A stretch of DNA of 64,000 bases from Usitatibacter rugosus. Lineage in GTDB: Bacteria; Pseudomonadota; Gammaproteobacteria; Burkholderiales; Usitatibacteraceae. The notes under the pieces are model-generated. The model was given only the letters and a program-made list of their open reading frames with translations. It made no database searches and had not been told where the DNA came from. This document shows positions 138 to 16,502 of the stretch, piece by piece. The position numbers and the translations under genes were made by a program. Location: NCBI RefSeq assembly GCF_013003965.1, contig NZ_CP053069.1:2387419-2451418 (forward strand), given 5' to 3'. Each line of letters starts with the position of its first letter. The first letter of the stretch is position 1.

Positions 138-232
138 CTGTTCCCGCCGGCGATACGATCGCATGTGCGCTACCGCACCGACGTTGGCACTTCCCGGAGC
201 TAAGGTCCATCCGATAACAACAAGGAAAAGCT

Positions 233-3115
233 ATGGGCGCGGTTGAGCAGCTTTCCGTGAAATCGCCCCTGAAGACGGGAGCGCTGCAGGACGCCATCTT
301 CAACAGCGCGCACTTCTCCAGCATCGCCACCGACGAGAAGGGCGTGATCCAGATCTTCAACGTCGGCGCCCAGCGGATGCTGGGCTACGCCGCGGCCGAT
401 GTCGTGAACCTCATCACGCCGGCCGACATCTCGGATCCGCAGGAGCTCATCGCGCGCGCCGCGGCGCTCAGCGCCGAGCTGGACACGAAGATCACCCCGG
501 GCTTCGAGGCGCTGGTGTTCAAGGCTTCGCGCGGCATCGAGGACATCTACGAGCTCACCTACATCCGCAAGGACGGCAGCCGCTTCCCGGCGATCGTCTC
601 GGTGACGGCGCTGCGCGATGCGAAGGAAGCGATCCTCGGCTACCTGCTGATCGGCACCGACAACACCGCGCGCAAGGGCGCCGAGGAAGCGCTGCTGAAG
701 GCGGGTGCGCTGCAGAGCGCGATCTTCAACAGCGCGAACTTCTCCAGCATCGCCACCGACGAGAAGGGCGTGATCCAGATCTTCAACGTCGGCGCCGAGC
801 GCATGCTGGGCTACGCCGCGGCGGACGTGATGAACAAGATCACGCCGGCCGACATCTCCGATCCGCAGGAGCTGATCGCCCGGGCCAACGTGCTCAGCCT
901 CGAGCTGGACACGACGATCACCCCGGGCTTCGAGGCGCTGGTGTTCAAGGCCTCGCGCGGCATCGAGGACATCTACGAGCTCACCTACATCCGCAAGGAC
1001 GGCAGCCGCTTCCCGGCGATCGTCTCGGTGACGGCGCTGCGCGACGCGAAGGAGGCCATCCTCGGCTACCTGCTGATCGGCACCGACAACACCGCGAGGA
1101 AGCAGGTCGAGGCCAACCAGGCGCTGCTCGACCAGAGGCTTCGCGACCAGCAGTTCTATACGCGCTCGCTGATCGAGTCGAACATCGACGCGCTGATGAC
1201 CACGGATCCGCAGGGCATCATCTCGGACGTGAACCAGCAGATGATCGCCCTCACCGGCCGCACGCGCGACGAGCTGATCGGAGCGCCCTGCAAGACCTTC
1301 TTCACCGACCCGGTCCGCGCCGACGCCGCGATCAAGCGCGTGCTGGCCGAGAACCGCGTCAGCAACTACGAGCTCACGGTGCGGGCGCTGAACGGCGAGG
1401 AGACGGTCGTCTCGTACAACGCGGCCACGTTCCATGATCGCGACCGGAAGCTCCAGGGCGTCTTCGCCGCGGCCCGCGACGTGACGGAAAGGAAGCGCTT
1501 CGACCGCACGCTGCAGGAGAAGAACATCGAGCTGGAGCACGCGAGCCGCATGAAGTCGGAGTTCCTCGCCACGATGTCGCACGAGCTGCGCACGCCGCTG
1601 AACGCCATCATCGGCTTCTCCGAGGCCATGAGCGACGGCCTGGTGGGCCCGATGAGCGAGACGCAGCGCGAATACATCGGCGACATCTTCTCCGCCGGCC
1701 AGCACCTGCTTTCCCTCATCAACGACATCCTCGACCTCTCGAAGGTCGAGGCCGGGATGATGGCCCTCGAGCTGGAGGCGGTGGACCTGGGCCTGCTGCT
1801 CGCCAACAGCTTCACCATCGTGCGCGAGAAGGCCGCCGCGCAGAACGTCGGCCTCGTGCTCGAGACGGGCAAGGACCTGGGCATCACCCAGCTCGACATG
1901 CGCAAGATGAAGCAGATCGTCTACAACCTGCTGTCGAACGCCGTGAAGTTCAGCTCGGAAGGCGGCTCGGTGACGCTCCGCGCCCACCGGGTTCCCCGAA
2001 GTGCCGTCGGCGTCCTGAAAGGCTCCTGGCATGTGCACGCCTTCCCGCTCGCCGACAGCACCCACCAGCACTTCCTCGAGATCTGCGTCACCGACAGCGG
2101 CATCGGCATCGCGGCCGACGACATGCCGAGGCTCTTCCAGGCCTTCAGCCAGATCGACAGCAGCCTGTCGCGCAAATTCGAGGGCACCGGGCTCGGCCTC
2201 GCGATGGTGAAGCTGATCGCCGAGCTGCATGGCGGCAGCGTGGCGGTGGCCAGCGCCGTGGACGAAGGCGCGACCTTCGCCGTGTGGCTGCCGCTCCGCA
2301 GCGCCCTGGGCCTGTCCGCCACCCAGCCCATGCCCGCGTACAAGCCCGTGGGCAGCGACCCCAAGGAGCGCGTGGCCCTCATCGTCGAGGACGACGACCG
2401 GGCGGCCGACCTGGTGCGCCTGCTGCTCGAGGCCGAGGGCTTCCGGGTGCTGCGCGCCGCGCACGCGGAGGACGCGCTGAAGATGGCGAAACAGCAACCC
2501 CTCTCGCTGATCACGCTCGACATCGAGCTGCCCGGCATCAACGGCTGGGAGTTCCTGCTGCGCATCCGCGAGGACCAGGCACTCTCCGGCGTTCCGGTGG
2601 TGGTTGTCTCGAGCCTCGTCGACAATCACATGGCGCTCTCCGATGGCGCCGCCACCGTGCTGCAGAAGCCCATCAGCCGCAGCGAGCTGAAGTCCTCGCT
2701 GGCACGCCTGGGGCTGCATCCCGACGCGGAGCACACGCACACGGTCCTGGTCGTCGATGACGATCCGAAGGCCATCGAAGTGATCGCCGCGTTCCTCCCC
2801 AGCCCGGCCTACACCGTGATCCGCGCCAACGGCGGCGAGGAAGCCATCGCGATGGCCAAGCACCTGCAGCCGGACCTGATCCTCCTCGACCTGATGATGC
2901 CCGGCGTGAGCGGCTTCGATGTCGTGCTGGAGCTGCGGCGGGATTCCGACACCGCGCGCATCCCCATCCTCGTCGTGACCGCGAAGCACATCACGCCGCA
3001 CGACCGCGCCACGCTCAACGCCAACCCCGACAACGCGATCAACATCGTCGAGAAGGCCGCCTTCAACCACGCCCACTTCATCGACGAGGTGCGGCGCGCC
3101 TTGCGGCCGCACTAG
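233..3115 (+). CDS. PAS-PAS-PAS hybrid histidine kinase with two receiver domains
   Basis: This is a 960-residue soluble hybrid sensor kinase. Two nearly identical PAS units (about residues 16-157 and 158-299) are followed by a third PAS (about 305-425). The HisKA domain has its phospho-acceptor His at residue 450 (SHELRTPLN). The HATPase domain has an N box (NLLSNAVKFS), a G1 box (DSGIGIA) and a G2 box (GTGLGLAMV). Two receiver domains follow, with phospho-acceptor Asp at about 763 and 886. No membrane segment is visible, so the signal is probably cytoplasmic. A single-domain response regulator starts 9 bp downstream and is the likely phosphotransfer partner. The start ATG follows an AAGGAAAAG ribosome-binding stretch. 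The tandem receivers suggest a branched phosphorelay; the ligand of the PAS domains cannot be read from sequence. Confidence 0.93.
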   Translation: MGAVEQLSVKSPLKTGALQDAIFNSAHFSSIATDEKGVIQIFNVGAQRMLGYAAADVVNLITPADISDPQELIARAAALSAELDTKITPGFEALVFKASRGIEDIYELTYIRKDGSRFPAIVSVTALRDAKEAILGYLLIGTDNTARKGAEEALLKAGALQSAIFNSANFSSIATDEKGVIQIFNVGAERMLGYAAADVMNKITPADISDPQELIARANVLSLELDTTITPGFEALVFKASRGIEDIYELTYIRKDGSRFPAIVSVTALRDAKEAILGYLLIGTDNTARKQVEANQALLDQRLRDQQFYTRSLIESNIDALMTTDPQGIISDVNQQMIALTGRTRDELIGAPCKTFFTDPVRADAAIKRVLAENRVSNYELTVRALNGEETVVSYNAATFHDRDRKLQGVFAAARDVTERKRFDRTLQEKNIELEHASRMKSEFLATMSHELRTPLNAIIGFSEAMSDGLVGPMSETQREYIGDIFSAGQHLLSLINDILDLSKVEAGMMALELEAVDLGLLLANSFTIVREKAAAQNVGLVLETGKDLGITQLDMRKMKQIVYNLLSNAVKFSSEGGSVTLRAHRVPRSAVGVLKGSWHVHAFPLADSTHQHFLEICVTDSGIGIAADDMPRLFQAFSQIDSSLSRKFEGTGLGLAMVKLIAELHGGSVAVASAVDEGATFAVWLPLRSALGLSATQPMPAYKPVGSDPKERVALIVEDDDRAADLVRLLLEAEGFRVLRAAHAEDALKMAKQQPLSLITLDIELPGINGWEFLLRIREDQALSGVPVVVVSSLVDNHMALSDGAATVLQKPISRSELKSSLARLGLHPDAEHTHTVLVVDDDPKAIEVIAAFLPSPAYTVIRANGGEEAIAMAKHLQPDLILLDLMMPGVSGFDVVLELRRDSDTARIPILVVTAKHITPHDRATLNANPDNAINIVEKAAFNHAHFIDEVRRALRPH
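278..1102 (+). repeat. Tandem duplication of a PAS-coding unit inside the hybrid kinase gene
   Basis: Bases 278-676 and 704-1102 are nearly identical direct copies with a 426-bp period (142 codons). Each encodes one PAS/PAC unit beginning ALQxAIFNSA and ending at GTDNTARK. The few differences are scattered single codons, for example H/N and Q/E changes. This indicates a recent in-frame domain duplication, or gene conversion between the copies. Confidence 0.9.
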
Positions 3116-3124
3116 GCCCGCCCC

Positions 3125-3496
3125 ATGGCGCGCGTGCTCGTGGTCGAGGATAACCAGGCGAACATGAAGCTCGCGGTGCTGCTGCTTCGCAATGCCGGCC
3201 ACCACGTCCTCTGCGCCGTCGACGCGGAAGCCGGGATCACCATCGCGCGCGAGCAGCTGCCCGACCTGATCCTCATGGACGTCCAGCTTCCCGGCATGGA
3301 TGGCCTCGCGGCGACGGCGCTGCTCAAGCGGGACCTCGCCACGGCGGGAATCCCGGTCATCGCGTTGACGGCGCTCGCCATGAAGGAAGACCAGGAGCGC
3401 GCCACCCTCGCGGGCTGCGACGCCTACATGGCCAAGCCGCTGCGCTACCTGGAGCTCTACGCGGCGATGGACCTGCTGCTGGTCCGCTCCCGATGA
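3125..3496 (+). CDS. Single-domain response regulator (DivK/CheY-like)
   Basis: This 123-residue protein consists only of a receiver domain. It has the acidic pocket (VVEDN), the phospho-acceptor Asp in LILMDVQLPG, the conserved Thr/Ala region (IALTALAM) and the Lys in MAKPL. There is no output domain, so it should act by protein-protein interaction or as a phosphate shuttle between the upstream hybrid kinase and the downstream REC-GGDEF-EAL protein. It starts 9 bp after the kinase stop and overlaps the next gene by ATGA (3493-3496), which indicates translational coupling in one operon. The assignment is secure at family level. Confidence 0.92.
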   Translation: MARVLVVEDNQANMKLAVLLLRNAGHHVLCAVDAEAGITIAREQLPDLILMDVQLPGMDGLAATALLKRDLATAGIPVIALTALAMKEDQERATLAGCDAYMAKPLRYLELYAAMDLLLVRSR

Positions 3497-6126
3497 GCGG
3501 CCCCGCTGCCCTCCTCCTCATCGTCGACGACGAGCCGGCCAACTGCAAGCTGCTGGTGACGCTGCTGCAGGCCGAAGGCTATGCGACGATGGTCGCTTCC
3601 AACGGAGAGGCCGCGCTGGCGCTCGTGGCGGAGCGATCCCCCGACCTGATCCTGCTCGACATCATGATGCCGGGCATGGACGGCTACCAGGTCGCCAAGA
3701 TCCTCAAGGGAAACCCCGCCAGCGCGCACATCCCGATCATCATGGTGACCGCGCAGATCGACCGCGGGGCACGCCTGGCCGGCCTCAATGCCGGGGCCGA
3801 GGAGTTCCTCACCAAGCCCGTGGACCGCTCCGAGCTGTGGCTGCGGGTGCGAAACCTCCTGCGCATGAAGGCTTCGGCCGACCTGCTGCGCGACCACGGG
3901 GCGATCCTCGAGGCGCAAGTCCGGGAGCGCACCGCCGACCTGCAGCGATTCCGCACCGCGATGGACGCAACCGTCGACGCGATCTTCCTCGTGGACTGCT
4001 CGACGATGCGCTTCATCGAGGTCAACGCGACCGCCTGCAAGATGCTCGGCTTCACGCGCGAGGAGACTCTCCGGATGGGGCCCGAGCAGGTCGCGCTGGG
4101 CAGCTTCGAGCAGCTGGACCGCGTCTACGACGCCATCATCGACGGCCGCTCCACCGGGGAGCTCGCCGAGACGCGCCTGCGCCGCAAGGACGGCACCGAG
4201 TTCCCGGTCGAGGCCAAGCGCACGGCCCACGCCTCGGGCGACGCCTGGATCATGGTCGAGGTGATGAGCGACATCACCGAGCGCAAGGAAGCCGAAGCGC
4301 GGCTGCACCGCCTCGCCCACTACGATCCCCTCACCTCGCTGCCCAACCGCACGTTGTTCAACGAGACGCTCAGGAACACCCTCGTGCACGCCACCCAGAA
4401 CGCCTGGCGGGTCGCCGTGCTCTGCATCGACCTGGACCACTTCAAGAACGTGAACGACACGCTCGGCCATGCGATGGGCGACGAGCTCCTGCGCCAGTTC
4501 GCCAGCCGCCTCGTGAAGTGCGTGCGCCTGCGCGACACCGTCGGGCGCCTGGGCGGCGACGAGTTCGCCGTGATCCTCGTGATGCAGCACGGCCAGCTCG
4601 GCGTGGCCGCCGTCGCCGCGAAGATCCAGGAGTGCCTGCGCGCACCTTTCGAGCTCGGCGGCCACGAGGTGAACTCGACCGCGAGCATCGGCGTGGCGAT
4701 CCTGCCCGACGATGCGGCCGATTCCGACACCCTGATGAAGTACTCGGACACGGCGATGTACCGCGCCAAGCAGGCCGGGCGCAACACCTTCCGCTTCTTC
4801 ACCGCGCAGATGAACGTCGAGGTGGTGGCGCGGCTCGAGCTCGAGACGGCCCTGCGCCGGGCGGTGGAGCACCGCGAGTTCGTCCTGCACTACCAGCCCA
4901 AGGTGCAGGTCGATAGCGGCCGCGTCTGCGGGCTCGAGGCGCTCGTTCGCTGGGAGCGCCCGGGCCACGGCCTCGTGCTCCCGGGGGAATTCATCCAGGC
5001 GCTCGAGGATACGGGGCTCATCGTGCGCGTCGGGCGGTGGATCGTCGCGACCGCCTGCAAGCAGATCCGGGCCTGGATGGACTCGCCCGTCGGGCCCCGC
5101 CAGGTCTCGATCAACGTCTCCTCGCGCCAGTTCGGCGAGGGCGACCTCGAGGGCGACGTGATCCGCGCGCTCGAGCTGAACGGCGTGCCGCCCGACCTTC
5201 TCGAGCTGGAGCTCACCGAGACTTCGCTGCTTGCGAACACCGAGCTCACCATCGCGTGCCTGCGGCGCCTGAAGAAGCTGGGCGTGCGCGTGTCCATCGA
5301 CGACTTCGGCACCGGCTACTCGAGCCTCGCCTACCTGCGCCGCTTCCCGATCGACAAGCTGAAGATCGACAAGGGATTCATCGACGACGTCACCAGCAAC
5401 CCGGACGACGCGTCGATCGTGCTCGCCATCGTGCGCATGGCGCGCAGCCTCAAGCTCGAGACGGTGGCCGAGGGCGTCGAGACGACAGCGCAACTCGCGT
5501 TCCTGCGCCGCCACGGCTGCGACCAGATGCAGGGCTACCTCTTCAGCAAGCCCCTGGCGGTCCCGGAGGTCGAGGCGCTGATGCTCGAGGGCAGGACCTT
5601 GCCTTCGCCCCGGGGGGATGGCAAGGAGCGGGTGCGCACGCTCCTGCTCCTGGACGACGAGCCGCGCATCCTTGCCGCGTTGCAGGCGATGCTGCGGGCG
5701 GATGGCTACCAGATCCTCACCGCGATCTCCGCGGCCGAAGGCTTCGAGCTGCTCGCCCTGCACAAGGTGGACGTCCTGATGTGCGACGAACGCATGCCGG
5801 CCATGAGCGGCACCGATTTCCTCGACCGCGTGAAGGACCTGTATCCCGATACGTTCCGCATCGTGCTCTCCGGCCAGGCCGACCCGAGCGGGATCATGGA
5901 CGCGATCAACCGCGGAGCGATCCACCGCTACTACACCAAGCCGTGGGACAACCGGACGATGCGCGAGAACATCAGCGAGGCATTCCGCTTCGGCGAGCTG
6001 CTGGGCAACCCCGACCGGGAAGGCCCCGCCGATGAGCCGCCGGCCCGCTGGGATCCCACCGCCGTCATCGAGCAGTGGAAGGCGCGCAACGAGCCTCCCG
6101 CGCGGAGCCCCGCCGACCTCCCCTGA
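3493..6126 (+). CDS. REC-PAS-GGDEF-EAL-REC cyclic-di-GMP signalling protein
   Basis: The 877-residue protein has an N-terminal receiver (about 6-122, LILLDIMMPG), a short coiled linker (RDHGAILEAQVRERTADLQ), a PAS domain (about 145-270) and a GGDEF domain with intact GGDEF at residues 354-358. It also has an EAL domain with GLEALVRW and DDFGTGYSSL. A second receiver of RpfG type sits at the C terminus (about 710-830, MCDERMPAMSG). Both c-di-GMP synthesis and hydrolysis motifs look complete, so the net activity cannot be predicted. Receivers at both ends are unusual and suggest dual phospho-input. The start ATG overlaps the preceding response regulator stop, so the two are probably co-translated. 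Confidence 0.92.
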   Translation: MSGPAALLLIVDDEPANCKLLVTLLQAEGYATMVASNGEAALALVAERSPDLILLDIMMPGMDGYQVAKILKGNPASAHIPIIMVTAQIDRGARLAGLNAGAEEFLTKPVDRSELWLRVRNLLRMKASADLLRDHGAILEAQVRERTADLQRFRTAMDATVDAIFLVDCSTMRFIEVNATACKMLGFTREETLRMGPEQVALGSFEQLDRVYDAIIDGRSTGELAETRLRRKDGTEFPVEAKRTAHASGDAWIMVEVMSDITERKEAEARLHRLAHYDPLTSLPNRTLFNETLRNTLVHATQNAWRVAVLCIDLDHFKNVNDTLGHAMGDELLRQFASRLVKCVRLRDTVGRLGGDEFAVILVMQHGQLGVAAVAAKIQECLRAPFELGGHEVNSTASIGVAILPDDAADSDTLMKYSDTAMYRAKQAGRNTFRFFTAQMNVEVVARLELETALRRAVEHREFVLHYQPKVQVDSGRVCGLEALVRWERPGHGLVLPGEFIQALEDTGLIVRVGRWIVATACKQIRAWMDSPVGPRQVSINVSSRQFGEGDLEGDVIRALELNGVPPDLLELELTETSLLANTELTIACLRRLKKLGVRVSIDDFGTGYSSLAYLRRFPIDKLKIDKGFIDDVTSNPDDASIVLAIVRMARSLKLETVAEGVETTAQLAFLRRHGCDQMQGYLFSKPLAVPEVEALMLEGRTLPSPRGDGKERVRTLLLLDDEPRILAALQAMLRADGYQILTAISAAEGFELLALHKVDVLMCDERMPAMSGTDFLDRVKDLYPDTFRIVLSGQADPSGIMDAINRGAIHRYYTKPWDNRTMRENISEAFRFGELLGNPDREGPADEPPARWDPTAVIEQWKARNEPPARSPADLP

Positions 6127-6186
6127 CGATGTCCCTATGTTCGCCACCGAACAGTCAAAGTCCGGCGAACGCATTAGCCTTGGCCC

Positions 6187-6834
6187 ATGCTGCATGAATT
6201 CGTCGCCACCCATCGAAACGAGCTGATCCTGCGCTGCCGCGGCCGGGTCGCGAAGCGGCTGGGACTCGCGCAGGCGCCTCCCGAGGCCGACCAGGGTGTC
6301 CCGTTGTTCCTGGTGCAGCTGGTGGACACGCTTCGCAGGGCGGAGGCCACGCGCGATGGCTCGGCGGACCTCGCCCCCCCGCTCGCCGCCCGTGTGCTCG
6401 GCGCCGCGGCGGCGCACGGCCAGCAGATGCTCGGCCTCGGCCATGGCATCGAGCACGTCGTGCGCGACTACGGCGACGTCTGCCAGACCGTGACCGAGAT
6501 GGCCGACGAGCTCGGCGCGCGGATCTCGGCAGAGGAATTCCGGGCGCTGAACCTGGCCCTCGACGACGCGATCGCCGAATCCGTCATGGCATTCGGAAAC
6601 GCGCGGGAGCGAGCGCATTGTTCCGACGCGAGCGACGCGACCGAGCACCTCCAGGCCATCGCGATCGAGCTGCGGCGCCTGGTGGGCGTCGCCCAGCACT
6701 CCTGCGCGGCGATGCGCACCGGCAGGGTCGGCATCAACGGGGCGACCGGCGAGTTGCTGGCCCATTCCCTCGCCGAACTGAAGGCCCTCACGACGCGATT
6801 GCTCGACGGACCGGGCAGCAAGCCCGGCGGATAA
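6187..6834 (+). CDS. Stand-alone RsbRD-type sensor domain protein
   Basis: This 215-residue helical protein begins HEFVATHRNELILRCRGRV and contains VVRDYGDVCQTVTEMADE. The pattern matches the N-terminal sensor domains found on RsbRD-like proteins and on some histidine kinases, where they form four-helix globin-like folds. Here the domain stands alone: no kinase, STAS or HTH domain follows. It lies just upstream of kaiC on the same strand, with a 76-bp gap. It may be a sensory or scaffold partner for the kinases nearby or for the Kai module. The family call is by pattern recognition; the function is inferred. Confidence 0.6.
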   Translation: MLHEFVATHRNELILRCRGRVAKRLGLAQAPPEADQGVPLFLVQLVDTLRRAEATRDGSADLAPPLAARVLGAAAAHGQQMLGLGHGIEHVVRDYGDVCQTVTEMADELGARISAEEFRALNLALDDAIAESVMAFGNARERAHCSDASDATEHLQAIAIELRRLVGVAQHSCAAMRTGRVGINGATGELLAHSLAELKALTTRLLDGPGSKPGG

Positions 6835-6910
6835 CGACGAAGCGTGCCTTACCGTACAGACCCGCTCTCCCGGCAGGCGGACAGTTCCCCGTGAAGGAGT
6901 CCCCCGGAAC

Positions 6911-8653
6911 ATGATGGACGCCAATCGCATCAATCCCCGCAAGTCCGTCAAGGCTCCGGTCAAGGCCCCGACCGGCATCCTCGGCTTCGACGAGATCACG
7001 GGCGGCGGCTTGCCTCGTGCACGCACCACCCTGCTGGTGGGCGGCCCCGGCTCCGGCAAGACGATCTTCTCGCTGCAGTTCCTCGTGCACGGAGCCCGCC
7101 ACGGCAAGGAGCCCGGAATCTTCGTCGCCTTCGAAGAGGCCTCGGAGCGCATCGAGTCCAATGCCGAGAGCTTCGGCTGGAACATGCGCCAGCTTCGCCG
7201 CGACGGGAAGCTGTACTTCCTCGACGCGCAACCCATGGCCGACCTGGTGCAGTCCGGCACCTTCGACCTGAGCGGCATGCTCGCGGCGCTGGGAGCCCAG
7301 GTCGCGCAGATGAAGGCGAAGCGCATCGTGTTCGATGCGCTCGACGTCGTGCTGGCCCTGCTTCCCGACGAAGCCTCGAAGCGCCGCGAGGTCTACCGCC
7401 TGCACGAGTGGCTGCTGGCCCACGGGTTGACCGGCCTCATCACCGCGAAGAGCGGCGGCGACGAGGCGAGCTCGGTCGGCGAGCAGACTTTCGGCTTCAT
7501 GCAGTTCATGGTGGACTGCGCCGTGATGCTTTGCCACGGCGTCGTGCTGGGCGTCTCGCAGCGCAACCTGCGCGTGCAGAAATACCGCGGCACGGCGTTC
7601 GACGAAAACGAATCGCCGTTCCTGATCGGCCCGACCGGCCTCGAGGTCGCGACCGCGCCGACCCTGGGAATCGAGCACGCCAAGGTGAGCAACGAGCGGA
7701 TCTCGAGCGGCGTCGCCCGCCTCGACACCATGCTGGGCGGCGGCTTCTACCGCGGCTCGGCCATCCTGGTCACGGGCTTTCCCGGCACGGCGAAGACGAC
7801 GCTCTCCGGAGCGTTCGCGGAAGCGGCCTGCCTCCGCGGGGAGCAGACGCTCTTCGTGAGCTTCGATTCGGACGTGAACGAGGTCGTCCGCGACCTGGGC
7901 TCGGTGGGCATCCATCTCGGGCCGCACGTGAAGAGCGGCGTGCTGCGAATGGCCTCGGCACGCACGATCACGGGAAGTGCCGAGACGTACCTGGTGCGCA
8001 TCAAGTCGCTCGCGAAGACCCACAAGGCCCGCTGCCTGGTGATCGACCCCGTCTCCACGTGGTCGAAATCCGGCAGCGACCAGGCCGCGCATAGCGTGGC
8101 CGAGCGCCTGATCGGCTGGACGAAGGCCAACGGCATCACGATGCTGTGCACGAGCCTGCTCGACGAGATCGCCAGCCAGACCGAGGGCGGCTCGTCGCTG
8201 CAGATCTCGACGCTCGCCGACGCCTGGATCCACCTGAGCTACGTCGTGCAGGCCGGCGAGCGCAACCGCGGGCTCTCCATCATCAAGTCGCGCGGCACGG
8301 CCCACTCGAACCAGGTGCGCGAGCTGATCCTGAGCGACACGGGCGTGACCCTCACCGACACCTATACGGCGGGCGGCGAGGTGCTGATGGGAACGCTGCG
8401 CTGGGAGAAGGAGAGCGCCGAGCGCGTCGCCCACGAGGTGACCGAGGTCGCGACCAAGCTGAAGCGCGTTCGCCTCGACGCCGAGGAGGCCGAGCTCGAG
8501 GTGCGCGTGAAGTCGCTCATGGTGGAGCTGGAGGCCAAGCAAGTGGAAAAGGCGCTCCTCGCCCGCACCACCGAGATCCAGAAGCGCGAGCTTTCCAAGG
8601 GCCGCACGCGGATGGGAGAGCTGCGCGGCGCGGACGTCGTCCCTCCAAAGTGA
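6911..8653 (+). CDS. kaiC: KaiC-like two-domain RecA-type ATPase
   Basis: A 580-residue KaiC homologue with two RecA-like domains. CI (about 20-245) has Walker A GGPGSGKT at 44-51 and the catalytic Glu pair in FVAFEE. CII (about 255-490) has the variant Walker A GFPGTAKT. Compared with cyanobacterial KaiC, the CII catalytic Glu pair is replaced by FDSD. The Ser-Thr phosphosite pair is kept as QIST, S433-T434. A charged coiled coil makes up the last 70 residues and is not part of cyanobacterial KaiC. The start follows a GGAGTC ribosome-binding stretch. kaiB begins 7 bp downstream and no kaiA is present. The protein is probably a non-circadian or hourglass-type KaiC controlling output through partners. 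Whether it autophosphorylates is open. Confidence 0.93.
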   Translation: MMDANRINPRKSVKAPVKAPTGILGFDEITGGGLPRARTTLLVGGPGSGKTIFSLQFLVHGARHGKEPGIFVAFEEASERIESNAESFGWNMRQLRRDGKLYFLDAQPMADLVQSGTFDLSGMLAALGAQVAQMKAKRIVFDALDVVLALLPDEASKRREVYRLHEWLLAHGLTGLITAKSGGDEASSVGEQTFGFMQFMVDCAVMLCHGVVLGVSQRNLRVQKYRGTAFDENESPFLIGPTGLEVATAPTLGIEHAKVSNERISSGVARLDTMLGGGFYRGSAILVTGFPGTAKTTLSGAFAEAACLRGEQTLFVSFDSDVNEVVRDLGSVGIHLGPHVKSGVLRMASARTITGSAETYLVRIKSLAKTHKARCLVIDPVSTWSKSGSDQAAHSVAERLIGWTKANGITMLCTSLLDEIASQTEGGSSLQISTLADAWIHLSYVVQAGERNRGLSIIKSRGTAHSNQVRELILSDTGVTLTDTYTAGGEVLMGTLRWEKESAERVAHEVTEVATKLKRVRLDAEEAELEVRVKSLMVELEAKQVEKALLARTTEIQKRELSKGRTRMGELRGADVVPPK

Positions 8654-8660
8654 GCCGCGC

Positions 8661-8948
8661 ATGAAGCGCTCCGCCTACCGGTTCCGCCTCTACGTCGCAG
8701 GCGACGCCCAGAACTCCACCCGCGCGCTCGCGAACCTCGGCGCCTTCTGCCGCACGCACATCCCCGGCCGCTGCGAGATCGAGGTCGTGGACGTGTTCCG
8801 CGAGCCCAAGCGCGCACTGGCCGACCGCGTCTTCATGACCCCCACGCTGATCAAGCTCTACCCCCGGCCGGTGCGCAGGATCGTGGGTACCCTGAGCCAG
8901 CCGGAAAACCTGATGGAGGCCATCGGGCTGGAAGTCGTGCTCGCATGA
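8661..8948 (+). CDS. kaiB: KaiB-like thioredoxin-fold protein
   Basis: The 95-residue protein carries the KaiB pattern: YRFRLYVAGDAQNSTRALANL at the N terminus, EIEVVDVFREPKRAL in the middle, then MTPTLIKLYPRPVRRIVG. In cyanobacteria KaiB is a fold-switching protein that binds phosphorylated KaiC. It lies 7 bp after kaiC and overlaps the following PAS-GGDEF-EAL gene by ATGA (8945-8948). The coupling suggests that the downstream enzyme is made together with the Kai pair. Confidence 0.93.
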   Translation: MKRSAYRFRLYVAGDAQNSTRALANLGAFCRTHIPGRCEIEVVDVFREPKRALADRVFMTPTLIKLYPRPVRRIVGTLSQPENLMEAIGLEVVLA

Positions 8949-11900
8949 GCCCGGTGAGGTCCGCCCCCGGCAGCGACGTGAACGCGGAAGTGAGCGCGCT
9001 GATCGATACGCTGCACCGCGCCGGGCAACGCCTGGAGGAGCTCACCGCCGGAGAGATCGACGCGGTGGCCGACCAGCATGGCATGGCCTACCTGCTGCCG
9101 CGCGCGCAGGAGCTGGTACGGCAGGGCGAGGCCGCCAAGAAGGCCGCAATCCTCAACGCGCTGCCCGCGCACATCGCCCTCATCGACATGCGGGGCGTCA
9201 TCGTGTCGGTGAACGATGCGTGGCACCGCTTCGCGGCCGCGAACGCCGTGCAGGGCGCGGGCCATGGCATCGGTGCCAACTACCTCGAGATCTGCGATCG
9301 TGCCGCCGGCCCCGGATCCGCGGGTGCCGTCGAAGCCGCGGTGGGAATCCGGTCCGTCCTCACGAGCGAGGCGCCGCGCTTCTCGATGGAATACGCCTGC
9401 GATTCCCCGGAGTTGCATCGCTGGTTCCTGATGACCGTGACACCGCTCGGCCATCCCCCGAGCGGCGCGGTCGTCATGCACCTCGACATCACCGAGAAGG
9501 AAGCAGCGGCCCAGGGACAACGCGACCTGCGCCAGCTGCTGGACAACATCGTGGAGAACATCCCGACCGCGGTGCAGGTGAAGTCCGTCCGCGACGACTT
9601 CCGCATCCGCATGTGGAACAAGGCGGCCGAGGCGATGTATGGCGTGCCCCGCGAGGAGGCGATCGGGCGCCACGTCCAGGACCTCTGGCCGAAGGCCGAC
9701 GCCGATCCGATGCACGCCTCGGACCTCGAGCTCGCCGCCACCGGGCGCATGCAGGAATACGTCGACCGGCGCGCCACGACCCGGGACCGGGGCGACATCC
9801 ATGTGCACATGCGCAAGGTGGCGCTGCGAAACGACGCCGGACAGGCGACGCACCTGCTCGTGATCACCGACGACATCACGATGCAGCTCGCCGACCGGGC
9901 ACGCCTGCGCGAAAGCGAGCGGCGCCTGACGGACATGCTCGAGCACGTGCGGCTGGTCGCGGTCATGCTCGACCGCGACGCGCGCGTCACGTACTGCAAC
10001 GAATTCTTCCTGAGCCTCACGGGCTGGAAGCGCGACGAGGTCATCGGGCAGGACTGGTTCGAGCGCTTCATGCCTCCCGAGCTGGGAGACATGAAGCCCA
10101 CGTTCCTCGACCTCCTCGACAACCTGCCCTCCGCCTGGCACGTCGAGAACGAGATCTACACGCGCATGGGCGAGCGCCGGCTGGTCCGCTGGAACAACTC
10201 GGTGCTTCGCTCGCCGGCGGGAGACGTGATCGGGGTGGCCAGCATCGGCGAGGACATCACCGAGCAGAAGGAGAACCAGGACTCGCGGCAACAGAGCGAC
10301 GAGCGCACGCGTTCGATCGTCGAGCTGGCCCTCGATGCCGTCGTCGTCATGGACTCGACGGGCTCGATCGTCGACTGGAACACGCAAGCCGAGAAGACCT
10401 TCGGCTGGACCCGGGACGAGGTCGCCGGCACTCCGCTCGCCGCCGTCATCATCCCGCCGCAGCATCGCGAGAGGCACGTGCTGGGCCTGGCGAGGTTCCT
10501 CGAGACCGGAACCGGCGCGATCATCAACCGGCGCGTCGAGCTGACCGCGATGCACCGCGACGGCCACGAGTTCCCGGTGGAGCTTGCGATCTCGCCGCTC
10601 AGGCTCGCCGGGAAATGGATCTTCAGCGCCTTCATTCGCGACCTCACCGACCGGAAGGATGCCGAGCGCAAGATCACGCGCCTGAACCGCGTCTACGCGG
10701 TGCTGAGCGGAATCAACACGCTCATCGTTCGCGTGCGCGACCATGAAGACCTTTTCCAGGACGCTTGCCGCATCGCGGTCGAGGACGGCAGCTTCGTCGG
10801 CGCGTGGATCGGGATGGTCGACCGCCCCGGGATGCGGATCGTGCGCGTGGCCTCGAGCGGCCTCGACGAGGCGTTCTTCGACATCATCGAGGACCGGCTC
10901 TCGCTCCTCGACGACTCGCCCGCGGGCCATGGTGCCCCCGCCGTCGCCGTCCGGGAGAAGCGCTCCGTCGTCGTGAACGACGTGGAGACCGTGCCGTACG
11001 TGCTGCACAAGAAGGCGCACGCCCAGCGAGGGATCCGCGCCGTGGTGAGCCTGCCGCTGATGATCGACGGAGATCCCGTCGGCGTGCTCAACCTCTACGC
11101 CGCCGACGCGAACGTCTTCGACGAGGCGGAGCTGCGGCTGCTCTCCGAGCTCACCGGCGACATCGCCTACGCGATCAACTACCTCGACAAGCGCGACCGC
11201 CTCGACTACCTCGCCTACTACGACGTGCTCACGGGGCTGGCCAACCGCACGCTGTTCCTCGAGCGCGTCAGCCAGTACATCCGGAGCGCGGCGACCGGCA
11301 AGCATGGGCTCGCCGTATTCCTGTTCGACCTCGAGCGCTTCAAGAGCATCAACGACAGCCTGGGGCAGCCGGCCGGCGACGAGCTCCTCCGCCAGGTGGC
11401 GCAGTGGATCACGCAGGATGCGCGCGACGCGAACCTGGCCGCGCGCCTCGGAGCCGACCATTTCGCGCTCGTGCTGCCCGAGATCAAGCCGGGCGGCAGC
11501 ATCGAGCGGCTGCTCGAGAAGGCGATCAAGGGGTTCGCCGAGCATCCCTTCAACCTGAATGGCGCCGTCTACCGGATTGCCGCGAAGGTGGGCGTGGCGC
11601 TCTATCCGGGCGACGGTGCCAACGCCGACGAGCTGCTGAAGCAGGCCGAAGCGGCGCTCAAGACGGCGAAGGCCTCCGGCGACCGCTACGCCTTCTACGC
11701 ACCCCGCATGACGGAGAGCTCGGCGGGCACGCTGACCCTCGAGAACCAGCTGCGCCAGGCCCTGGAGAAGGAGCAGTTCGTCCTGCACTTCCAGCCGAAG
11801 ATGAACCTCGCGAGCGGCGGGCTCACCGGCGCCGAAGCGCTGATCCGCTGGAACGATCCGGCCACCGGCCTCGTGCCCCCGGGCCGGTTCATCCCGATCC

Positions 11901-12493
11901 TGGAAGAGACGGGCCTCATCCACGAGGTGGGGCGCTGGGCGCTGCACAAGGCGATCGCGGAGTACCTGCACTGGCGCGCCGCGCGCCGCGCCGCGGTGCG
12001 GGTCTCGGTCAACGTCTCGCCGCGGCAGCTGCGCGACCGCGGCTTCGTCCGCGACATCCGCAACGCGATCGACGTCGATCCCCACGCGGCCGCCGGCCTC
12101 GAGCTGGAGATCACCGAGAGCCTGATCATGGAGGACGTGAAGAACAGCATCGCGAGCCTCCAGGCGATCCGCGAGATGGGGGTCACCATCGCCATCGACG
12201 ACTTCGGCACCGGCTTCTCGTCGTTGAGCTACCTCTCGAAGCTCCCGGTGGACACGCTCAAGATCGACCGCTCCTTCGTGGTCGACATGACGACCGGGCC
12301 GCAGGGGCTCTCGCTCGTGTCGACCATCATCACGCTCGCGCACTCGCTCAAGCTCTGCGTCGTCGCCGAAGGCGTGGAGACCGCGATGCAGTCGCGGCTG
12401 CTGCACGACCTGCGCTGCGACGAGATCCAGGGTTACCTGTACGGCAAGCCCGTGCCGAGCGCGGAGTTCGAAGCCCGCTACCTGCTGCCATGA
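8945..12493 (+). CDS. Multi-PAS/GAF protein with degenerate GGDEF and intact EAL domain
   Basis: This is a 1182-residue soluble protein. Four PAS domains occupy roughly residues 60-580 (recurring ITEKE, ITEQKE and LTDRKDAE linker ends). A GAF domain (about 590-745), a GGDEF domain (about 755-915) and an EAL domain (about 925-1175) follow. The GGDEF signature reads GADHF at 836-840, so cyclase activity is probably lost. The EAL motif (GAEALIRW) and DDFGTGFSSL are intact, so a c-di-GMP phosphodiesterase regulated by its N-terminal domains is most likely. The start overlaps the kaiB stop and the stop overlaps the next GGDEF-EAL gene (ATGA, 12490-12493). Linkage to kaiBC suggests it is their output enzyme; that is inference. 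Confidence 0.9.
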   Translation: MSPVRSAPGSDVNAEVSALIDTLHRAGQRLEELTAGEIDAVADQHGMAYLLPRAQELVRQGEAAKKAAILNALPAHIALIDMRGVIVSVNDAWHRFAAANAVQGAGHGIGANYLEICDRAAGPGSAGAVEAAVGIRSVLTSEAPRFSMEYACDSPELHRWFLMTVTPLGHPPSGAVVMHLDITEKEAAAQGQRDLRQLLDNIVENIPTAVQVKSVRDDFRIRMWNKAAEAMYGVPREEAIGRHVQDLWPKADADPMHASDLELAATGRMQEYVDRRATTRDRGDIHVHMRKVALRNDAGQATHLLVITDDITMQLADRARLRESERRLTDMLEHVRLVAVMLDRDARVTYCNEFFLSLTGWKRDEVIGQDWFERFMPPELGDMKPTFLDLLDNLPSAWHVENEIYTRMGERRLVRWNNSVLRSPAGDVIGVASIGEDITEQKENQDSRQQSDERTRSIVELALDAVVVMDSTGSIVDWNTQAEKTFGWTRDEVAGTPLAAVIIPPQHRERHVLGLARFLETGTGAIINRRVELTAMHRDGHEFPVELAISPLRLAGKWIFSAFIRDLTDRKDAERKITRLNRVYAVLSGINTLIVRVRDHEDLFQDACRIAVEDGSFVGAWIGMVDRPGMRIVRVASSGLDEAFFDIIEDRLSLLDDSPAGHGAPAVAVREKRSVVVNDVETVPYVLHKKAHAQRGIRAVVSLPLMIDGDPVGVLNLYAADANVFDEAELRLLSELTGDIAYAINYLDKRDRLDYLAYYDVLTGLANRTLFLERVSQYIRSAATGKHGLAVFLFDLERFKSINDSLGQPAGDELLRQVAQWITQDARDANLAARLGADHFALVLPEIKPGGSIERLLEKAIKGFAEHPFNLNGAVYRIAAKVGVALYPGDGANADELLKQAEAALKTAKASGDRYAFYAPRMTESSAGTLTLENQLRQALEKEQFVLHFQPKMNLASGGLTGAEALIRWNDPATGLVPPGRFIPILEETGLIHEVGRWALHKAIAEYLHWRAARRAAVRVSVNVSPRQLRDRGFVRDIRNAIDVDPHAAAGLELEITESLIMEDVKNSIASLQAIREMGVTIAIDDFGTGFSSLSYLSKLPVDTLKIDRSFVVDMTTGPQGLSLVSTIITLAHSLKLCVVAEGVETAMQSRLLHDLRCDEIQGYLYGKPVPSAEFEARYLLP

Positions 12494-14841
12494 TCCCCCT
12501 CCCCCCACCGCCCGTCGCCCACAAGCCGTGGATGAGTCGCGCCGCGACACCCCTGTTCATCTTCCCGGTGATCGCGGTGATTGCCCTGGCGATGATCTGG
12601 GGCGCGACCTACAAGCTGATCGGGATCGAGCGCGCCGCGGCCGAGCACGCGGTGGCGGTCTCGGGACGCGAGCTGGCCGAGACCTACGAAGCGCAGGTCG
12701 TGCGCGCGCTGCGCGAGATCGACCAGACGCTGAAGCTCGTGAAGTACGCGTACGAACGGGGAAGGCGCTTCGAGGTGCTGCAGGAGCTGAAGGCGAGTGC
12801 GCTGCTGCCGCCGGAACTGCTCTTCGGCATCAGCATCGCCGATCGCGACGGCAACATCGTGGCCGGCACGCGCCCTCCGGCGCAGCACAACGTGGCGAGC
12901 GAGGACTACTTCCGGGTGCCTCGGGGCGTCGATACGGTCTTCATCGGCCAGCCGCCGCGGCTGGTCGATGACGCAAAGGGCAAGCTGCAGTTCAGCCGCA
13001 GGCTGAGCGCGCCCGACGGGTCCTTCGCGGGCGTCGTGATCATCTCGGTGGATATCGCCTACTTCGTGAGCGGCTACGACGCGGCGAAGCTCGGCGCCCA
13101 CGGGATGCTCGGCATCGTCGGGACGGACGGCGTGTTCCGCGCGCGGCGCAGCGGCGACAAGGTCAACGCCGGCGACACGGTGGGCAAGGCGACGATCGTA
13201 TCCGACGCGGACGACGAACCGGCGGAAGCCCGGCTCGTCACCAACCCCTGGGACGGCGTGCAGCGCTATACCAGCGCGCGCCAGCTCTTCGAGTTCCCGC
13301 TCGCGGTCATCGTCGGCCTCTCCGCCGACGAGCAGCTCGCGCCGGCGCGCGCCGCGGTGCGGCTCCACGCGCTGCAGGCCGGGACCGCGAGCGTGGTCCT
13401 GCTGGTGGTCATCTTCGCGCTGTGGCGCATGAGCCGGCAGCTCGCCCGCGCCCGCAAGCGCGCCGCGGAGGAACAGGTAGCGCACGCCGCACGCGTGGAA
13501 TACCTCGCCTACCACGATGGCCTCACGGCGCTGCCCAACCGCACCCTGTTCAGCAAGCTCCTCGGCCAGAGCATCAGCCAGGCGCGCCGCTACCGCCGGC
13601 AGCTCGCCGTGATATTCCTCGACCTGGACGGCTTCAAGGCCGTCAACGACACGCTCGGCCACGAGGGCGGCGACGCGCTGCTGAAGCAGGTCGCGGTGCG
13701 GCTGCGCGAATGCCTGCGCGACAGCGACACGGTGGCCCGTCTCGGCGGCGACGAGTTCGTGGCGCTCCTGCCGGAGCTCACCCAGGACAAGTACGCCGCG
13801 ATCGTCGCGCAGAAGATCCTCGCCGCCATCGCCCGGCCTTTCATGCTGGACGGGCAGGAGGTGCGGGTGAGCGCCAGTATCGGCATCAGCGTGTACCCGG
13901 AAGACGGCACCGACGAGCAGGCGCTCGGCAAGAATGCCGACACCGCGATGTACAAGGCGAAGCAGGAAGGCAAGAACAACTTCCAGTTCTACTCCGAGAC
14001 GCTGAACGCGAGCTCGGCGGAGCGCCTGTCGCTCGAGAAGGCCCTGCGGCACGGGCTGGAGCGCGGCGAGTTCGAGCTGCACTACCAGGCGAAGCGCGAC
14101 GTGCAGAGCGGCACGATCACCGGCGTGGAGGCGCTGCTGCGCTGGCGCCCGGACGGAGGCGACATCGTCGAGCCGGGGCGCTTCCTCCCGTTCGCCGAGG
14201 AAACCGGCCTCATCGTGCCCATCGGTCGCTGGGTGTTGATGACCGCATGCCGCCAGAACGCCGCATGGCACGCGCTGGGCCTGCCGCGGCTCACGCTGTC
14301 GGTGAACCTCTCGGCGCGCCAGTTCAACGATCCGGAGCTGCTGGGCCACATCGGCGCGGCCCTCGCGGAGTCCGGCATGGAGGCGGGCCTCCTCGAGCTG
14401 GAGATCACCGAAGCCCTGCTGATCGGCAACGTCGAGCGTGCGCTGAAGATCTTGGACGGGTTGAAGGACATCGGAGTGCGCATCGCGATCGACGACTTCG
14501 GCGCCGGCTACGCGTCGCTTTCGTTGCTGAAGCGATTCCCGCTCAACACGATCAAGATCGACCGTTCCTTCATCCGCGACCTCACCAGCGGGCGGGAGGA
14601 CAAGGCGATCACGCGGGCCATCATCGCGATGGGCAGGACGTTGAGCCTCACGGTCGTGGCGCAGGGCGTGGAGACGAAGGAGCAGGCCGACTACCTGCGC
14701 GAGAACGCCTGCGACGAATTCCAGGGCTACTACCTGAACGTGCCGATGGCGCCCGCGGACATCGCGGAGCTACTTCGCGCCCAGGGGAAGCTCCCGCATC
14801 GCCACGACTTGCACGGTGGCATCGAGCTCGCTGCGATCTAG
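12490..14841 (+). CDS. Membrane-bound dCache-GGDEF-EAL protein
   Basis: A 783-residue inner-membrane protein. A first transmembrane helix (about 20-40) and a periplasmic double-Cache sensor (about 50-285, with GVDTVFIGQPP and VVIISVDIAYFV) are followed by a second helix (about 300-320). A GGDEF domain with GGDEF at 419-423 and an EAL domain (GVEALLRW, DDFGAGYASL) come next. Both catalytic motifs appear intact. The chosen ATG forms an ATGA overlap with the preceding gene; the open frame extends further upstream but only as a shadow of that gene. The 3' 72 bp overlap, on the opposite strand, the 3' end of a PstS-like gene. It probably senses a small periplasmic ligand. Confidence 0.92.
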   Translation: MIPLPPPPVAHKPWMSRAATPLFIFPVIAVIALAMIWGATYKLIGIERAAAEHAVAVSGRELAETYEAQVVRALREIDQTLKLVKYAYERGRRFEVLQELKASALLPPELLFGISIADRDGNIVAGTRPPAQHNVASEDYFRVPRGVDTVFIGQPPRLVDDAKGKLQFSRRLSAPDGSFAGVVIISVDIAYFVSGYDAAKLGAHGMLGIVGTDGVFRARRSGDKVNAGDTVGKATIVSDADDEPAEARLVTNPWDGVQRYTSARQLFEFPLAVIVGLSADEQLAPARAAVRLHALQAGTASVVLLVVIFALWRMSRQLARARKRAAEEQVAHAARVEYLAYHDGLTALPNRTLFSKLLGQSISQARRYRRQLAVIFLDLDGFKAVNDTLGHEGGDALLKQVAVRLRECLRDSDTVARLGGDEFVALLPELTQDKYAAIVAQKILAAIARPFMLDGQEVRVSASIGISVYPEDGTDEQALGKNADTAMYKAKQEGKNNFQFYSETLNASSAERLSLEKALRHGLERGEFELHYQAKRDVQSGTITGVEALLRWRPDGGDIVEPGRFLPFAEETGLIVPIGRWVLMTACRQNAAWHALGLPRLTLSVNLSARQFNDPELLGHIGAALAESGMEAGLLELEITEALLIGNVERALKILDGLKDIGVRIAIDDFGAGYASLSLLKRFPLNTIKIDRSFIRDLTSGREDKAITRAIIAMGRTLSLTVVAQGVETKEQADYLRENACDEFQGYYLNVPMAPADIAELLRAQGKLPHRHDLHGGIELAAI

Positions 14842-15246
14842 GTAGCCGATGGCCCCCGGCGTCGCGGCGAGGCGGCGCTTCAACTCCGCGCCGGTCGCGA
14901 CCTCGCGCGGCGGCTGCCCACGGCCGGTGAAGATCATCCGCGACCAATGCGCGGTGACCTGCGCCGGGGACTTGCCGGCGAGGTGCGAGTAGAACTCGTC
15001 GCGGGCGGTCGAGCCTTCCGCGAGGTCGATCGGCACGGCCAGGGTCCCGTCGGGATAGCGGCTGGCCTTGCCGAGGAAGATGTCCACGACCTGGTTCCTG
15101 CTCAACGGCGCCAGCGGGGCCTTTGCGGAAACCACGGCAACGACCTCGGCGGACGCGCTTCCGCAAAGGCACAGGGCGAGGGCCGCGATCGCGGATCCGA
15201 GGCGGTGCATGAAGTGCGAGCGGCGCATGAGACCGGCGCCGCGCAT
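14770..15246 (-). CDS. Small PstS-like periplasmic substrate-binding protein
   Basis: The 158-residue product has a signal peptide (HRLGSAIAALALCLCGSASA) and a short domain resembling the N-terminal half of phosphate-binding PstS proteins. That domain includes LSRNQVVDIFLGK, the anion-binding-like EGSTARDEFY, and GAIGYLDRSE. It is much shorter than classical PstS. The start at 15246 overlaps the stop of the upstream outer-membrane gene (TGATG); a downstream ATG at 15228 is also possible. Such small proteins are often paired with a porin and a Cache-GGDEF protein, and here the c-di-GMP gene converges with it. Its ligand is unproven. Confidence 0.75.
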   Translation of the reverse strand: MRGAGLMRRSHFMHRLGSAIAALALCLCGSASAEVVAVVSAKAPLAPLSRNQVVDIFLGKASRYPDGTLAVPIDLAEGSTARDEFYSHLAGKSPAQVTAHWSRMIFTGRGQPPREVATGAELKRRLAATPGAIGYLDRSELDATVQVVAMRELPLGAK

Positions 15247-16502
15247 CAGAAGACGAAGTCCAGGGATGCGCTGAACAGGTCGATCTTCCCGCCCAGCCGG
15301 TAGCCGGGCTGGATGTTGCTCACGAGTCCGGTCGACCCCGAAGCGATCGACGTGCGGTCGAACTGGAGCTTCAGCGCCATGTTTCTCCGGAAATCCCAGC
15401 GCACGCCTACCGAGGCGGTGTCCTGCGCGATCCGGCCGGCCAGCGTGGCGTTGAGCGCTGCATTGAGACCGGCCGCGGCGCCGGCGATCTCGGGCGGCAA
15501 CCCTTCGAGCGGGAGCCCGGGGTCGGAGAGATTGTTCGCAGTCGTCCGGGCGTACGTGGCAAAAGGCGTGAAGTTGCCGATGCGGTAACCGCCGCTCAGG
15601 TACCAACCCGACTTCCCGCCGAGGAATCGATTGGCGCTGTTCAGGCGCGACCATTCGCCCGTCACGAACCACTTGCCCGGATCGTAGGTCGCACCCACGC
15701 CGGCGAACGTCACGAGCGTGTCGTCGATGGTGTACTTGCTCGCGATCGCCTCGCCCTCGGGGCCGAACTGCCGGAACGCGTCGAAGAGCGGGTTCAATGC
15801 GTCGATCGTGATGCGCGCCCGGCCCACATTCACGCGCGCGGAGAAGAATCCGAGCTCGAAGGCATCGATCAGCGTCACGTTCCCGCGTGCCTTCGACTTC
15901 GTCGAGCCTCCGCCGTCGCCCGGATAGAGCGAATCCGTTCGCCCGACCGTCGCCTGGAGCCGGTGGGAGGCGGTGCCGGCGGGAATGTAGAAGGTCGCGT
16001 CGGCGCCGTCGAAAGACGAGAGGGGAACGAGGCTGTAGACCTCGACGGGCGGACGCACCCAGGGGTTCGCGTACCCGACCTTGCGCGTTTCCGTGAGCAT
16101 CAGGGACGGGAGCACCATGCGCCCGACACGCACCGTGATGTCCGGAGTCACCTTGTAGATCACGTTCGCCCATTCGACGTGGGGCCGGTAGCTCCCGTCG
16201 TAGTTCTGCTCCGAAATCACCTGCAGGATGGCGGACAGCCGAGGCGTGGGGTTCGCGCTCACCTGGCCCGCGATCAGGCTGTCGACACCCGGGTGCCAGG
16301 AGCGGGAGAAGCCTGCACCGTCCGGCTTGGACTGCGTCCCGGTGAAATCCGCCTGGTCCTCGCTCGAATGCACGACGCCCAGCGTGCCGAAGCCGCTGAA
16401 GGAGAACATCGGCACCTCGGGGTCGGCCGCGTGCGCATGGCACGCGTGCAGCGCAAGCACGAGCAGCGCGAGGGATCGACGTCGGGACGACGTGGGCATC
16501 AT
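15246..16502 (-). CDS. Porin-like outer-membrane beta-barrel protein
   Basis: A 418-residue protein with a signal peptide (RRRSLALLVLALHACHAHA) followed by alternating beta strands and a C-terminal Phe (SASLDFVF) typical of barrel insertion. Two adjacent ATGs at 16502 and 16499 are possible starts; the longer reading in the same frame has no supporting signal. The pattern (FSGFGTLGVVHSS, VGVRWDFRRNMALKLQFDR) matches large uncharacterised proteobacterial porin-like proteins. It is translationally coupled to the downstream PstS-like protein, so the two may work together in uptake or sensing. Substrate unknown. Confidence 0.75.
   Translation of the reverse strand: MMPTSSRRRSLALLVLALHACHAHAADPEVPMFSFSGFGTLGVVHSSEDQADFTGTQSKPDGAGFSRSWHPGVDSLIAGQVSANPTPRLSAILQVISEQNYDGSYRPHVEWANVIYKVTPDITVRVGRMVLPSLMLTETRKVGYANPWVRPPVEVYSLVPLSSFDGADATFYIPAGTASHRLQATVGRTDSLYPGDGGGSTKSKARGNVTLIDAFELGFFSARVNVGRARITIDALNPLFDAFRQFGPEGEAIASKYTIDDTLVTFAGVGATYDPGKWFVTGEWSRLNSANRFLGGKSGWYLSGGYRIGNFTPFATYARTTANNLSDPGLPLEGLPPEIAGAAAGLNAALNATLAGRIAQDTASVGVRWDFRRNMALKLQFDRTSIASGSTGLVSNIQPGYRLGGKIDLFSASLDFVF

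Follow-up and report, generated by a model that had tools for sequence, protein, structure and literature searches.

How do KaiB and KaiC talk to the cell where KaiA and SasA are missing? This question is raised by a kaiC-kaiB locus in a 64,000-nucleotide stretch of the genome of Usitatibacter rugosus (contig NZ_CP053069.1, positions 2,387,419 to 2,451,418; hereafter the window), and the answer may lie in a short N-terminal segment, the GEVDA box, of the protein encoded directly behind kaiB. As judged from the sequences, it is probable that a KaiA-independent KaiBC switch docks its output protein by way of this dedicated box of about 53 residues. An earlier note on this DNA had described a KaiB-KaiC module without KaiA, coupled to cyclic di-GMP (c-di-GMP) enzymes. 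The order it gave, a gene labelled RsbRD-like followed by kaiC, kaiB, a PAS/EAL gene and a dCache-GGDEF-EAL gene, agrees with the open reading frames and the Pfam scan. The KaiA of a circadian KaiABC system was indeed not found, with no match at E ≤ 1 in the genome (one contig of 4.56 Mb), and the only place with a KaiB domain (PF07689) is kaiB itself. The features of the core are:

6911..8653, plus strand: kaiC, 580 aa, two RecA-like domains (PF06745 twice) and a C-terminal tail
7775..7798, plus strand: Walker A motif of the CII domain, GFPGTAKT, with Ala instead of the usual Gly (77-row alignment)
7862..7870, plus strand: replaced catalytic pair of CII, F318 D319 S320 (77-row alignment)
8207..8212, plus strand: phosphosite pair S433 T434 of KaiC (77-row alignment)
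8393..8650, plus strand: C-terminal tail beyond the KaiC fold, with the conserved tip LRGAD (77 rows)
8661..8948, plus strand: kaiB, 95 aa (PF07689, 1.7e-19)
8945..12493, plus strand: output protein, 1182 aa, with box, four PAS, GAF, degenerate GGDEF and EAL (Pfam, alignments)
8978..9136, plus strand: N-terminal GEVDA box, residues 12-64 (locus counts; predicted local distance difference test score, pLDDT, about 90)
11450..11464, plus strand: degenerate GGDEF motif, GADHF (40-row alignment)
11744..12451, plus strand: EAL domain with eight catalytic residues present (38 complete rows)

A contig scan with the KaiC of the window gave 90 loci, and the best 80 of them, all named and 48-77% identical, form our locus set. 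Their labels are mostly beta- and gammaproteobacterial and also include Rhodopila, Fodinicurvata, Terracidiphilus and metagenome-assembled genomes labelled Verrucomicrobiales, Myxococcales and others. kaiB follows directly on kaiC in 77 of the 80 loci; in L045, L051 and L070 the contig stops at kaiC. The gene after kaiB begins with the box in 75 of the 77 loci that have kaiB, whatever the type of output. KaiB starts -76 to 77 bases from the kaiC stop (77 loci), and the box follows the kaiB stop by -6 to 163 bases, with a median of 27 (75 loci). In the window the gap between kaiC and kaiB is 7 bases, and the ATGA-type overlaps read earlier between the last three genes measure 4 bases by coordinates at both junctions, kaiB with the PAS/EAL gene and the PAS/EAL gene with the dCache gene. 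The synteny search proposed in the earlier note thus found the order kaiC-kaiB-EAL conserved far beyond the genus. The conserved core is kaiC-kaiB-(box-PAS-GAF-GGDEF-EAL) only, to which the RsbRD-like gene and the dCache gene have been added locally. Among relatives of U. rugosus the module is patchy, since only four of 61 related genomes, its own included, have a match to the KaiB of the window. Four loci (L035, L071, L072 and L092) have kaiC in pieces, with interrupted or shortened frames that are either broken genes or assembly errors.

That kaiC and kaiB are followed by a kinase or a GGDEF/EAL gene has been known since 2011: according to the available text of De Luca et al. 2011 (PMC3164672), non-cyanobacterial kaiC-kaiB clusters almost all have a histidine kinase or a GGDEF/EAL gene immediately downstream. 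The same text, as far as available, does not contain a shared N-terminal box, Crp-type outputs or an Asp class of CII, and no mention of these three was found in the accessible parts of the open-licence literature, which omits most subscription papers.

Kinase and EAL outputs have about 60 N-terminal residues in common, with the consensus EIxxLIxxLHxTxQRLEELTAGEVDxVxDxxGRTFLLRRAQExLR. The profile of the box was made from 35 rows (the window and 34 loci; the other 41 of the 75 positive loci gave no row), and its weakest matches are the Crp-type members, at E values of about 1e-4 to 1e-8. Scans of genomes of the same class and phylum scored at most 17-18 candidates per genome. Within these bounds, 30 of 370 class genomes have KaiB, at 40 places, and four have the box, including the own genome and that of L078; all four box places start less than 300 bp downstream of KaiB on the same strand. 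Among 397 phylum genomes the profile gave only the copy of the own genome and one weak match (L159), which was dismissed because the protein looks like the FecR type. For 50 of the 80 loci whole genomes were available, 49 in number, and these contain 52 box places, 50 at kaiB loci, one in a tandem second gene and one in a lone paralogue. Each genome has a single one, apart from a genome with two kaiBC loci, the tandem-box genome and the genome of the lone paralogue (G826). The box is therefore found almost exclusively behind kaiB. The paralogue itself (L158:4967-7891) has the box-PAS-GAF-GGDEF-EAL architecture, its box being diverged, and its genome also carries the full module.

None of four box sequences has a Pfam match at E ≤ 10, and the best match of the box profile among the sequences of solved structures is at E 0.14. 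An AlphaFold2 model of residues 1-200 of the output protein, made from 62 rows, has a mean pLDDT of 90.9 and predicts for the box a helix (10-33), a hairpin (40-50) and a second helix (52-72) that continues into the PAS domain. A fold search with this box-PAS model returned PAS proteins among the best 50 of 831 matches and is uninformative on the box itself.

A diverged form of the box occurs as well. Six weak box relatives were obtained from carrier genomes. Two of them (L165, L167) form the start of a kinase-type gene that follows an additional kaiC-kaiB pair of the ordinary kind; the other four are unconvincing. Dismissed among the weak matches were L166 and L168-L170, which are short and unconvincing, and L177 and L187, two similar proteins of about 345 aa whose 3 kb of read sequence contain no Kai gene. 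The diverged form also starts the protein behind KaiB in L011, L095, L100 and L102. A model of it (A2), made from these six sequences (L165, L167 and the four just named), found eight places in seven of the same 370 class genomes. KaiB precedes seven of the eight by 37-98 bp; three of these are part of the model and four are new. The remaining match is weak (5e-4) and comes from a genome without KaiB. In 219 phylum genomes, some of them common to the class set, seven of nine A2 matches are directly behind KaiB, and the other two are weak: one follows a piece of KaiC where KaiB was not seen, the other comes without Kai genes. Compared by hhalign, the profiles of the two box forms match over 34 columns (probability 92, E 6e-7).

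The form of the box goes along with the type of KaiC. When read in loci that were not picked by KaiC sequence, the first form occurs with Asp at the catalytic place of CII in five of five genomes (L009/L161, L107/L163, L109 from the own genome, L110 with a weak box, and L164), and the second with a Glu-Glu and Ser-Ser KaiC in 12 of 12 (L010, L011, L095, L100, L104, L176, L179, L180, L182-L185); L111/L162 have no readable CII. The Asp in CII does not require the box, because L114, L115, L117 and L119-L121 are of the Asp type and have no box in the 3.2 kb read. These six, found by a weak KaiB match, have a KaiC with FDE and GTAK, GAAK or GTSK and possibly represent another output lineage. In the ordinary kaiC2-type loci L010, L104, L165, L167, L180 and L181, two tandem kaiB-like frames precede the box protein. 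On balance we favor the assumption that the GEVDA box is an as yet undescribed, Kai-dedicated adaptor of kaiC-kaiB-effector operons in Pseudomonadota and beyond, which would drive kinases, c-di-GMP enzymes and Crp-type regulators, and that box and KaiC core have diverged together into two lineages, a Glu-Glu/Ser-Ser KaiC2 with "RSGEVDA" and an Asp type with "TAGEVD".

Behind the box, the outputs are exchanged. The gene after kaiB encodes an EAL protein in 39 loci, a kinase fused to EAL in two, a histidine kinase in 18 and a Crp-type regulator in seven, and it is cut by the contig end in nine. In five loci the kinase is followed by a REC-EAL gene (L013, L060, L063, L064 and L075; L013 and L075 by Pfam), and with these counted, an EAL domain is reached in 46 of the 66 loci that could be classified. 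Carriers in culture whose records show an intact kaiC include Pseudoxanthomonas gei (L052) and Massilia rubra (L054), both with an EAL output, and Aromatoleum diolicum (L044), with a kinase-EAL fusion. The Crp type was assigned by Pfam (HTH_Crp_2) in L080 and L084 and by similarity to L080 in the other five. An EAL gene behind kaiB, in line with the coupling proposed previously, is seen in many loci, but kinases and Crp-type regulators take the same place in others, so that c-di-GMP is not the only predicted output. Mapped on the KaiC tree, EAL and kinase outputs require eight changes, at least four of which are forced by supported branches; the tree search was quick, its outgroup branch is very long and 23 of 78 rows carry no label, and only these change counts were used. 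The PAS domain next to the box can change, too (L034, L073, L086 and L164, judged by eye).

The catalytic residues of an EAL domain are E, N, E, D, D, K, E and Q, and ENEDDKEQ is complete in 38 of 38 complete rows, the window included. The GGDEF domain in front is degenerate in 31 of 40 rows and canonical in nine; in the window it reads GADHF, which differs from the GG[DE]EF of diguanylate cyclases and had not been remarked on before. Because its EAL residues are complete and its GGDEF is degenerate, the output protein of the window is predicted to be a phosphodiesterase that breaks down c-di-GMP.

The KaiC of the window has two KaiC ATPase domains and matches NF006799 at 473.9 bits, above the curated cut-off of 408; its best solved relative is the KaiC of Rhodobacter sphaeroides (8dba, E 2.7e-103). 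KaiB reaches 69.7 bits against a PF07689 cut-off of 27 and stays below the NCBIfam cut-offs for circadian KaiB; its relatives in the PDB have a best E of 4.7e-17. For KaiC an alignment of 77 rows (76 loci and the window) was counted after the fragments L035, L070, L072 and L092 had been dropped. All 77 rows have a tail of at least 83 residues from position 495 with the conserved tip LRGAD, and in the window the tail comprises 86 residues from residue 495 on. The tail described in the earlier note is therefore there, while its coiled coil rests on homology, since a crude heptad test gave no better result than shuffles (p 0.27). Box-linked KaiC tails tend toward an R..AD-like tip (LRGAD, SRRGAD, SRARQAD, SRMAD; window, L011, L171, L173, L174, L176), possibly a docking peptide. 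As in the KaiC2 subgroup there is a C-terminal extension, but the phosphosites are Ser-Thr and not Ser-Ser.

We picture the switch as follows. A KaiA-independent KaiBC pair would act as a timer or as a sensor of ATP/ADP. The KaiC ring with its C-terminal tail would sense the nucleotide state, KaiB would bind KaiC in one of the states, and the box of the downstream protein would bind to the KaiB-KaiC assembly. The state would then travel along the PAS/GAF helices until it reaches the output. In this genome the output is a predicted EAL phosphodiesterase, which would lower c-di-GMP, with the neighboring probable diguanylate cyclase as a local opponent. The Kai state would thereby control the c-di-GMP enzyme; docking, KaiB or KaiC as its partner, its sign and its time scale are what we infer.

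The box stays in place, and was hardly found anywhere else, while the PAS domain and effectors of three kinds are swapped behind it; the simplest cause is that it probably touches the Kai proteins. Such contact could also run in the other direction, as in cyanobacteria CikA partly acts as an input. The PAS and GAF domains of the box protein would then sense a cue and act on KaiC or KaiB, with c-di-GMP turnover being secondary. Four PAS domains and a GAF do precede the enzyme, and adjacency gives no direction. However, EAL, kinase and Crp outputs vary behind one and the same box and the EAL residues are intact, which fits a receiver driving different effectors, and the Pfam scan found no PAS in L080, a short protein of the Crp type; we therefore regard an input function as unlikely. 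Even less probable, in our opinion, is that the box makes no contact with Kai proteins and is a helical cap that aids dimerization and stays beside kaiB by operon inheritance. The first helix of the model is 24 residues long and the box does precede a PAS domain. A cap would, however, be expected on other PAS proteins, and no other place in the 370 class genomes (at most 18 candidates per genome) was over the threshold; moreover, the box is kept even where the next PAS or the whole output is exchanged.

A separate question is whether KaiC is still a kinase. CI has its Walker A motif, and its Glu pair is kept in 76 of 77 rows with one gap. In CII, canonical Glu-Glu and GxxGxGK[ST] are replaced by FDS and GTAKT, and the change, noted earlier as FDSD (residues 318-321) beside a retained QIST (431-434), turned out to be a trait of the whole clade: the catalytic position is Asp in 76 of 77 rows, followed by Ser (60), Glu (9), Thr (7) or Ala (1), and the third residue of the P-loop GT[x]K is Ala in 69, Ser in seven and Gly in one. 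These features were not selected for, because the one search peptide present in all 76 locus rows is FMQFMVDC and none of the other five occurs in them. In the available text of PMC5520375, all cyanobacterial KaiC1-3 subgroups have the catalytic glutamates and GXXXXGKT. CII may thus have lost its autokinase activity, leaving KaiC as an ATP-dependent scaffold or ATPase sensor and not a phosphorylation timer; with Glu-Glu changed to Asp-Ser and the P-loop Gly to Ala in nearly all rows, and T434 to Ala in 12 of 77 (Thr in 58), this is a real possibility. Yet S433 is present in 76 of 77 rows, all 77 have the Lys of the P-loop and the Asp of Walker B in CII, and P-loops of the GTAKS type are active in MCM ATPases, so that the loss appears somewhat doubtful to us. 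In our main reading D319 would replace the catalytic Glu. The Asp-type CII poses the question whether a KaiC can keep time without catalytic glutamates.

Several points weigh against docking of an output on a Kai timer. Adjacency alone shows only an operon, which can itself keep genes together; docking and enzyme switching are proposed from sequence, the changes in CII could mean loss of kinase activity, and the heptad test of the tail was negative. Two kaiB loci show no box gene, L036, in which only about 120 bp could be read, and L041, a true exception with 729 bp past kaiB. Around the lone box gene of G826, the 10 kb of sequence read contain no kaiB. In the class set, 11 box genes stand against 40 KaiB places, so that most KaiB have no recognized box; several box-less loci have kaiB before kaiC (e.g. 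L093).

SasA and CikA of cyanobacteria combine a clock-binding N-terminal module, in SasA of KaiB-like fold, with a signaling output. The proposed function resembles theirs, but unlike SasA the box is a helix-hairpin-helix of about 53 residues, and neither Pfam nor the model revealed a KaiB-like N-terminal domain on the output protein. PAS sensor, GGDEF and EAL follow in the same order as in DosP-type phosphodiesterases (NF008467, PDB 9cmf), but the output protein is below the NCBIfam cut-off (399 vs 857 bits) and the fold match covers the PAS part. The KaiBC hourglass of R. sphaeroides (Pitsawong et al. 2023, PMC10076222) is likewise KaiA-less with a C-terminal extension on KaiC; according to the text available, this tail forms a coiled-coil dodecamer joining two hexamers and the system is driven by the ATP/ADP ratio, and the words operon and histidine kinase are absent from it. 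In contrast to the KaiC of the window, its CII keeps Glu-Glu and Ser-Ser, as seen by comparison with the 77-row alignment. The kaiC-B-PAS/HK operon of R. palustris (Ma et al. 2016, PMC4794148) has the same order with a PAS kinase third, but differs in its kinase output and its reported catalytic EE, and the available text does not mention the box. U. rugosus has a second two-domain KaiC (G000:C1:1178504-1182036, L160:2505-6037), with FDE in CII and TSY in the phosphosite region, followed by a histidine kinase and with neither kaiB nor box in the 10 kb read. It resembles the kaiC-histidine kinase pairs described for Ramlibacter; as far as the text of De Luca et al. 2011 (PMC3164672) is available, the RtaNt module belongs to such pairs without kaiB.

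The core lies in a row of eight plus-strand genes of signaling and Kai types (233-14841; open reading frames and Pfam scan), the first three of which the earlier note had not covered:

233-3115, plus strand: hybrid histidine kinase (Pfam scan)
3125-3496, plus strand: receiver (Pfam scan)
3493-6126, plus strand: REC-PAS-GGDEF-EAL-REC protein (Pfam scan)
6187-6834, plus strand: 215-aa helical protein ("RsbRD-like"), predicted sensor-type, local neighbor outside the core (AlphaFold2 model, homologue search)
12490..14841, plus strand: dCache-GGDEF-EAL protein, local neighbor outside the core (start set at the ATG of position 12490, within a longer frame)

The genes at 233..6126 are a possible input relay; of 60 loci, 13 have the end of a signaling gene in the 1.5 kb before kaiC on the same strand and one has it on the opposite strand. 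In positions 1-15500, a promoter scan gave none (0.7 expected) and a terminator scan two (5.3 expected). Base composition gives no sign of a foreign island, as the GC content is 0.66-0.70 across 2-kb steps of positions 1-30000. The genome has 21 EAL domains, three of them at this locus.

The label RsbRD-like is weak. The protein has no Pfam match at E ≤ 10, and its helical model (pLDDT 75.7, 3 rows) no significant fold match, although several of the best are globin-like sensors, including the RsbR N-domain 2bnl (E 0.6). Homologues occur in two of 80 loci, once on the opposite strand and once far downstream, and in five of five genomes of the genus searched, all without a KaiB match (three are 80-87% complete); the protein is therefore not a Kai part, and its gene was rejected as a member of the module. 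Several of these relatives and a second copy in the own genome belong to longer frames of about 380-410 aa, so that the stand-alone protein may represent a sensor domain that lacks the C-terminal part usually joined to it. The dCache gene was rejected as well, since a Cache-GGDEF gene is seen in three of 80 loci, many of which end before that place; the dCache match itself is below the Pfam cut-off (22.8 vs 45 bits). Its GGDEF is intact, its RxxD site looks intact, and its EAL has VAQGVET in place of VAEGVET, whose Glu has a role in EAL domains. With GGDEF intact and this Glu changed to Gln, the protein is probably a diguanylate cyclase beside the predicted phosphodiesterase.

Altogether, a box found almost only beside kaiB suggests a plug between a Kai timer or energy sensor and the output, which here is predicted to be c-di-GMP breakdown. 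Being small and separable, it marks the partner protein and would thus offer a sequence handle for candidate Kai-controlled proteins in non-cyanobacterial genomes. In U. rugosus, c-di-GMP and hence the choice between motile and sessile life would be tied directly, through the box, to the timer or energy sensor.

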